In this document: positions 48,747-50,776 of the stretch, piece by piece
Position numbering within the stretch: position 1 is the stretch's first letter
How the letters are laid out: each line of letters begins with the position of its first letter
Assembly (NCBI GenBank): GCA_013204595.1
Contig: JABMNK010000133.1
Location: 1-64,000, forward strand
Direction: 5' to 3'
Length of the DNA stretch: 64,000 bases
Source: Flammeovirgaceae bacterium
Lineage (GTDB): Bacteria > Bacteroidota > Bacteroidia > Cytophagales > Cyclobacteriaceae
Position numbers and translations under genes: made by a program
The notes under the pieces: model-generated
What the model saw: only the letters and a program-made list of their open reading frames with translations
Told to the model about the DNA's origin: nothing
The model's database searches: none

Positions 48747-49100
48747 GACAATCTCTATCTTCAGCGAGTCGATAAAAACTTATCAAGGTGAAAATCAATT
48801 TTGACCATAACCAATTCGCTACTCGATATAGGTAAGAAAGAATCAAGCAAATAGTGGCTAGGAAAGTTGTGATCACTGCTATCTAAATACCTAGATCTTT
48901 TCCAGGTCATTGGATTTATGTCTAACTAATCGGCAAATAAAATTACAATAATTTAGATTTAATAGAAAAATTTAAAAATATCTACAATGAAATATATGTT
49001 TTCTCATAAAATTTTGTTTAATTAAAAATAAATGGAACATAATTCTCGATGATTCTGTTTTTTGAATAAGCTTATTTTGACAAACTAAACATACAAAACA
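48747..49100. other. Intergenic region upstream of the rhodopsin gene
   Basis: About 350 bp of very AT-rich DNA with no ORF or RNA gene that I can support. A TTATTTTG box at 49072-49079 resembles a -7 element with one mismatch but has no matching TTG at -33. The region likely holds the rhodopsin promoter. Confidence 0.45.
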
Positions 49101-49823
49101 ATGAATATATTACTAAATGCTATTTTGGCCCCCGGTGATTATGTGGGGTTTACGTTTTTTATAGGCAGCATGGCGATGTTGGCAGCTACTGTTTTTTTCT
49201 TTTTAGAAATGGGTAACGTGGCTGGAAAATGGAGAACTTCCCTGTTGATTTCTGGGCTAATTACTTTTATCGCAGCAGTTCATTATTTCTACATGAGAGA
49301 TTTTTGGGTAACGAACCAGACGTCTCCAACAGAATTTAGATATATTGACTGGATTTTGACTGTTCCTTTGATGTGTGTTGAGTTCTATTTGATTTTGAAA
49401 GCCTTTGGCGCGAAAATGGACCTTCTATGGAAAATGATTGTATATTCTCTTTGGATGCTTATTTTTGGCTATTTGGGAGAGACTGTTTTCAGAGATTCGA
49501 GTGCAATGTGGGGTGCCATCTCAACTTTAGGTTATGTTGGTATCTTTTATGAAGTATGGTTTGGATCTGCTAAAAAGCTATCTCAAGGATCAAATGATCC
49601 TCATTTACAAAAAGCGTTCAATACCTTAGCTTGGTTTATATTAGTTGGTTGGGCTATTTATCCTATTGGTTATATGGCTATACCCGGTGGATTATTAAGT
49701 GGGGTTTTACCTTTAGAATCTTTAGATATCATTTATAATATTGGAGATGCTATAAATAAAATCGGTTTTGGATTAGTGATTTATTCATTGGCTATAAGCA
49801 GCGGTAAAAAAGCGGAAGCGTAG
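49101..49823 (+). CDS. Proteorhodopsin, light-driven proton pump
   Basis: A 240-residue seven-helix membrane protein. Helix C reads RYIDWILTVPLMCVEFYLIL: D83 is the Schiff-base proton acceptor, T87 the middle residue and E94 the proton donor (the DTE set of proton pumps), and R80 is conserved. Met91 sits at the position that sets colour in proteorhodopsin (105 in the GPR numbering), consistent with green absorption. His61 matches the proton-affinity His75. Helix G has K220, the retinal Lys, in GDAINKIGFGL. It would build a proton gradient in light. The retinal enzyme gene blh follows in the same direction. Confidence 0.97.
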   Translation: MNILLNAILAPGDYVGFTFFIGSMAMLAATVFFFLEMGNVAGKWRTSLLISGLITFIAAVHYFYMRDFWVTNQTSPTEFRYIDWILTVPLMCVEFYLILKAFGAKMDLLWKMIVYSLWMLIFGYLGETVFRDSSAMWGAISTLGYVGIFYEVWFGSAKKLSQGSNDPHLQKAFNTLAWFILVGWAIYPIGYMAIPGGLLSGVLPLESLDIIYNIGDAINKIGFGLVIYSLAISSGKKAEA

Positions 49824-49840
49824 TAGTAAAAAATTAATTA

Positions 49841-49870
49841 AAAGAGGGTATTTTAATGCCCTCTTTTTTT
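49841..49870 (+). terminator. Terminator or attenuator between rhodopsin and blh
   Basis: AAAGAGGG at 49841-49848 pairs with CCCTCTTT at 49859-49866 around a 10-nt loop, followed by T to 49870. The T-tract ends right before ATG 49871, the likely blh start. An upstream in-frame ATG (49856) lies inside the loop. Readthrough would be needed for blh expression from the rhodopsin promoter. Confidence 0.8.
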
Positions 49871-50776
49871 ATGATTAAATATTTACAATACGGATTGGCT
49901 TTGGTTGTGGGATCACTTTATTTGGTGTTTATCCCTGACGATGATGTGACAAATATAGTTGCACTGACTGCTATTTTATTTTTTGGTGTCCCCCATGGAG
50001 CTATTGATCACAAAATCCATCTCAAATTCTCAAAAAAAAGTAGCGTTAAAAAATTCATTTTAATTTATGTCTTAGTGGGTTTGGGCTTTCTTTTATGGTG
50101 GGTTTTGATGCCACTGAAAGCGTTGTTGATATTTATTATTTTGTCGGCTTATCATTTTGGACAAGAATTGATTGAGGATATTGCCGAAACCCCAAAAGAC
50201 CCTATTCTTAATTTAAGTTGGGGATTAATTGTGCTAGTAAGTCCAATTATTTTGAAATTCAATGAACTGATGCCGACCTTAAATTTCATTGGCGTACAAC
50301 CGGCATCAACTATCTCGAAGGAAATCCAAATAATTACGATTTTAGTGATTCACTTGCTGAGCTACTCTTATTTGGGTTATCTTTTTTTTAAAGGAGTGAT
50401 TCATAAAACAGCCGTTTTTCGTTTGGTCCTTTTTTCTATTTACTTAATGCTGAGTTATTTCATACTTCCCTTTATTGTCGCTTTTGCTCTTTATTTCGTT
50501 TTATTTCATTCAATCAATGCGATGCGGCACCAATTTTTTTGGATGAAAGACCGCACTACTGAATATACATTCGTTTCTTTCTTAAAAGACCTAAGTCCTT
50601 TTACCTTACTGACCATTGTGGGAATGTCTGGTTTGATTTATTATTTAGATCCCGCTGACTGGTCTGTGTTTTTTACCTATTTTTTTGTCTTTATTTCTTT
50701 ATTGACCTTACCGCATGCCATTCTGTTTGATGAACTGTATTTATCCAAGAATACCACAAATCAGCCCAAAGGGTAA
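49871..50776 (+). CDS. blh: Blh, beta-carotene 15,15'-dioxygenase
   Basis: 301 residues from ATG 49871 (the 49856 ATG adds MPSFF and sits in a terminator loop). It is a membrane enzyme that splits beta-carotene into two retinals, the chromophore of the adjacent rhodopsin. Histidine landmarks match Brp/Blh proteins: PHGAIDH (H42, H47), SAYHFGQE (H95), LFHSINAMRH (H213, H220) and LPHAILFDE (H282). About eight spans are predicted. No carotenoid synthesis genes are in the window, so the precursor must come from elsewhere in the genome. Confidence 0.95.
   Translation: MIKYLQYGLALVVGSLYLVFIPDDDVTNIVALTAILFFGVPHGAIDHKIHLKFSKKSSVKKFILIYVLVGLGFLLWWVLMPLKALLIFIILSAYHFGQELIEDIAETPKDPILNLSWGLIVLVSPIILKFNELMPTLNFIGVQPASTISKEIQIITILVIHLLSYSYLGYLFFKGVIHKTAVFRLVLFSIYLMLSYFILPFIVAFALYFVLFHSINAMRHQFFWMKDRTTEYTFVSFLKDLSPFTLLTIVGMSGLIYYLDPADWSVFFTYFFVFISLLTLPHAILFDELYLSKNTTNQPKG

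Follow-up and report, generated by a model that had tools for sequence, protein, structure and literature searches.

The rhodopsin-blh locus and its junction

The window (the whole 64,000-nucleotide stretch of DNA that was analysed) encodes, on the forward strand, a proteorhodopsin-like rhodopsin of 240 amino acids (49101-49823; PF01036, E 1.1e-44), whose closest solved chains are the proteorhodopsins 9jov and 9jou. This is followed on the same strand by blh, encoding a beta-carotene 15,15'-dioxygenase of 301 amino acids (49871-50776; TIGR03753, 159.8 bits, cut-off 95.25; PF15461). The rhodopsin, read over 49101-49820, carries RYIDWILTVPLMCVEF, which we take to be the D-T-E pattern found in proteorhodopsins that pump protons, the spectral-tuning position being occupied by Met. 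The sequence upstream of rhodopsin (48940-49100) aligned poorly with genus relatives, which resemble one another; the promoter context of the window's rhodopsin seems to differ from theirs, though the downstream junction is conserved. The genome of one relative (G144) contained two blh copies (G144:C16:36894-37793 and G144:C1:19830-20729), each 89% identical to the query, representing either duplication or assembly redundancy.

A hairpin occupies the 47-nt gap between the rhodopsin stop (49823) and the blh ATG (49871), where positions 49840-49873 read AAAAGAGGGTAT-TTTA-ATGCCCTCTTTTTTTATG. The core stem consists of 8 bp (49844-49851 paired with 49856-49863), and four A-U pairs lengthen it to 12 bp spanning 49840-49867. 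The 5' arm (49840-49851, forward strand) was identified by sequence, terminator scan and fold, and the 4-nt loop TTTA (49852-49855, forward strand) by scan and fold. The 3' arm (49856-49867, forward strand) opens with an in-frame ATG, which is GTG in several relatives. A T7 tract, the putative U-tract, lies directly after the core stem (49864-49870, forward strand); the first four of its residues are also base-paired in the 12-bp form of the stem. With 12 bp, 4 G-C pairs and -14.6 kcal/mol, the hairpin has the stable stem-loop, and with T7 the T-tract, of an intrinsic terminator. Sequence, fold and shuffles all confirm the description in the sequence-only reading of an 8-bp GC-containing stem with a 7-T tail reaching 49870 and an ATG at 49871. 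Its placement of a second ATG (49856) within the loop was mistaken, as the three bases of this ATG belong to the 3' arm, where they make up the pairs closest to the loop.

The junction was the top terminator-like site of the surrounding 12 kb; since that scan overall returned fewer sites than its shuffles, the site was judged by its own fold. Positions 49826-49890 folded at -19.3 kcal/mol (z = -5.9), a value equalled by none of 200 shuffles, and only 1 of 2000 dinucleotide shuffles of the 47-nt gap alone folded as well. An Rfam search of the junction returned no family at threshold, and sub-threshold matches to L20_leader and MicX were judged to be chance.

Conservation within the genus

Comparison of the junction among close relatives, which the sequence-only reading had proposed as a check, found the hairpin, T7 and abutting ATG in 8/8 genus-level relatives (rhodopsin 86-96% identical) and absent from none. 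The ten inner stem pairs form in all nine genomes (the window plus eight relatives), three of them changing pairing type (e.g. G-C, G-U, A-U), and the T7 tract is invariant in 9/9. Covariation counts in the stem within the genus were not above those of shuffles, and covariation proof of structure is therefore weak at this level; that unrelated sequences in other families are predicted to fold alike at the same place is a stronger structural argument. Among genus relatives, the sequence that separates the stem from the rhodopsin stop is variable, and the bases from the stem through codon 10 of blh are near-invariant. Furthermore, 6 of 7 synonymous sites in the first blh codons are identical, compared with 35% overall, a modest signal (p = 0.008).

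Association of the hairpin with rhodopsin across Bacteroidota

A single detector was applied throughout, which scored a gene as capped when a hairpin with a T-tail and a folding energy of at most -10 kcal/mol lay within 85 nt of it. A cap followed 82 of 97 Bacteroidota rhodopsin genes versus 32 of 397 other ORFs of the same loci; these loci are phylogenetically related and the counts are therefore not independent. With the same detector, a cap followed 0 of 32 blh genes; in the genome from which the window comes, 48 of 748 ORFs had one, as did 0.2% of shuffled rhodopsin 3' regions, a control for base composition only. By gene order, a terminator was present in about 31 of 33 rho-blh gaps (exceptions being L039, with an imperfect hairpin and no T-tract, and L099, with a short tail) and in 2 of 26 blh-rho gaps, and the hairpin therefore tracks the rhodopsin 3' end. 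Rhodopsin is also capped in loci that have blh on its upstream side, mostly from Saprospiraceae, and in those of Flavobacteriaceae with blh on the opposite strand; this points to rhodopsin's own terminator and gives no support to the hairpin as a blh-specific control element. By this comparison of loci, the hairpin is best assigned to rhodopsin and need not have arisen for blh, which sits behind the rhodopsin cap in the window's lineage and several others.

In several families, the genes for retinal synthesis come just past the rhodopsin cap, either blh itself or a crtY-like gene with blh behind it. The order rhodopsin, hairpin, crtY-like gene was observed in L011, L012, L015, L018, L021, L026, L031, L086, L088, L095, L098 and L063, with crtY starting 7-51 nt from the stem and blh located farther downstream in most. 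The crtY-like gene behind the cap gave clear matches to TIGR01790 (lycopene-cyclase family), below the cut-off of that model. In L111, an ORF lying 657 nt past the rhodopsin stop encodes, in a single frame, both a cyclase C-terminus and a Blh domain, and open frames of 650-684 aa surround the Blh match in G104, G140, G236, G393, G409 and G506; these are apparent lycopene cyclase-Blh fusions. Many Chitinophagaceae-type junctions (L089, L094, L100-L105, L108 and L110) carry a related hairpin, roughly GGCCYATGT...ACATRGGCC, whose sequence likeness goes beyond the needs of a plain terminator.

The blh start and its translation initiation region

The assignment of ATG 49871 as the probable blh start is favoured by relatives, including two (L045 and L091) in which the hairpin lacks an in-frame ATG and the blh start comes after the T-tract. 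A start at 49856 was rejected on comparison with homologues. The 5' arm contains GAGGG, which mimics a Shine-Dalgarno sequence at a distance fitting for a start at 49856; sequences of this type are not recognised by Bacteroidia ribosomes, according to PMC9976891, and the mimic is not retained in other families.

The blh translation initiation region (-30 to +20; 49841-49890, forward strand) is A-poor and structured (-13.8 kcal/mol). Among 350 sampled genes of the same genome, 0.6% were as structured and 0.9% as A-poor. Initiation in Flavobacterium is favoured by low structure and by A at -3, -6, -12 and -13, and genes tend not to carry additional AUGs close to their starts (PMC6847099, PMC8710568). 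The bases of blh at these positions are T, T, C and G, and an additional AUG lies at -15; rhodopsin carries A at every one of the four, and the fold of its start region is 0.0 kcal/mol. By the rules published for Flavobacterium, the blh start would thus be exceptionally poor and that of rhodopsin ideal. Start-region energies refer to the close clade, distant blh starts having been left out because start assignment is unreliable there. The poor start could be a by-product of terminator position. A wider pairing over the blh AUG appeared in the fold of the window's junction and is not kept in relatives, and the suggestion that the hairpin hides or exposes the start finds no support.

Proposed mechanism and alternative explanations

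The distance from the stem end to the first in-frame blh ATG has a median of 14 nt and is at most 40 nt in 28 of 32 cases; the median is 40 nt where another gene follows a capped rhodopsin, and other pairs with a terminator in the window's own genome have a median of 77 nt. The distance to blh thus appears mostly too short for a promoter. In the window there is no space at all between the T-tract and the ATG, so a transcript can include blh only by running through the hairpin or by beginning inside it.

From the anatomy, its conservation, the link to rhodopsin rather than to blh, and the unusual start region, we infer that termination occurs at the junction, that it is partial and that it affects the dose of blh. 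The simplest account is a leaky rhodopsin terminator that, combined with a poor start site, holds blh well below rhodopsin, and we give this a probability of roughly 0.6. Most polymerases leaving rhodopsin would stop in the U-tract, yielding a monocistronic rhodopsin mRNA with a 3' hairpin, and a minority would read through to produce a rho-blh mRNA. On the latter, the blh AUG would lie right behind a stable hairpin and a U run, outside the A-rich context favoured in Bacteroidota, and blh would therefore be weakly translated. Termination and weak initiation would jointly keep the catalytic enzyme far under the stoichiometric opsin, blh probably being made by leak-through alone and at a far lower level. 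The earlier proposal that blh is set below rhodopsin therefore keeps its core, as architecture, conservation, the lack of promoter room and the poor start all predict it, and loses the notion of an element specific to blh. In Dokdonia PRO95, where the gene layout differs, blh was weakly expressed (PMC3587595, reported indirectly), and low blh may therefore be general and reachable by other routes.

It is unlikely that the hairpin is instead a full terminator of rhodopsin and that a separate weak promoter, lying within the 3' end of rhodopsin or overlapping with the hairpin, drives blh. The terminator is strong for this AT-rich genome, and a consensus scan gave a sigma-70-like match in the rhodopsin 3' end (49712-49739), such matches occurring at chance level. 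However, a promoter within rhodopsin would still feed transcripts into the same terminator, and the post-stem space is too small for a promoter in most rho-blh loci. No TAnnTTTG box was found within 250 nt upstream of blh in the window, and none is conserved in relatives; both promoter scans are weak tests because they also missed rhodopsin's own promoter. A role mainly in mRNA stability is likewise judged unlikely. In this scheme the hairpin would halt 3' exonucleases once a rho-blh transcript had been processed, and the rhodopsin part would outlast the blh part. The hairpin shares its position and ratio logic with the puf intercistronic hairpin (PMC11354728), and the T-tract is poor or missing in a few capped loci (L039, L099), but T-tracts are present in nearly all loci and are needless for a plain stability hairpin. 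The two roles can coexist.

Very little weight falls on a conditional gate, in which read-through or access to the blh start would respond to light, to temperature, to carotenoid state or to translation through the 3' end of rhodopsin. The near-invariant bases from the stem to codon 10 within the genus leave space for such an added function, yet no conserved alternative fold or upstream sensor was found, the stretch from the rhodopsin stop to the stem is variable, and the junction belongs to no Rfam family at threshold. Least probable of all, and very improbable in itself, is chance or genome compaction, by which a terminator happens to adjoin a start codon. A control sample of 937 kb, taken by regions and covering about 31% of the window's genome (470 co-directional pairs), did contain at least one further case of a strong terminator placed directly against an ATG (L150, before a TPR-protein gene) along with a weak one (L148). 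The L150 arrangement is kept in 0 of 7 genus relatives, against 8/8 for rho-T7-ATG-blh.

Opsin and retinal are needed one-to-one, the retinal-making enzyme is catalytic, and surplus blh could drain beta-carotene. The cap behind most rhodopsin genes suggests that Bacteroidota may fix this ratio by gene order together with a terminator, a consideration that would matter for the transfer of rhodopsin-blh pairs to other hosts. A conditional gate, if true, would match retinal synthesis to opsin demand at the RNA level.

Comparison with known systems

The junction resembles a Rho-independent (intrinsic) terminator in its GC-containing stem, short loop and T-tract after a stop codon, and differs in that the T-tract leads without interruption to the start codon of the following gene, which belongs to the same pathway. 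Neither an anti-terminator nor a sensor, as expected of an attenuator or riboswitch, was found conserved at the junction. Full-text literature searches of incomplete coverage retrieved no description of this rhodopsin-blh element, and searches for leaky intra-operon terminators yielded nothing useful. In the cyanobacterial cpcBA-cpc linker operons, a leaky terminator lies behind an abundant operon product; the rhodopsin-blh terminator, which would likewise be leaky, is distinguished by being joined to an extremely poor start context. In the puf operon of Rhodobacter, a hairpin similarly separates an abundant light-harvesting gene from a scarcer partner. That intercistronic hairpin sets the protein ratio via mRNA decay (PMC11354728, citing Klug 1987), whereas the rhodopsin-blh T-tract points to termination. 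The junction is best read as an example of the known setting of gene ratios by an intercistronic hairpin rather than a new type of switch.
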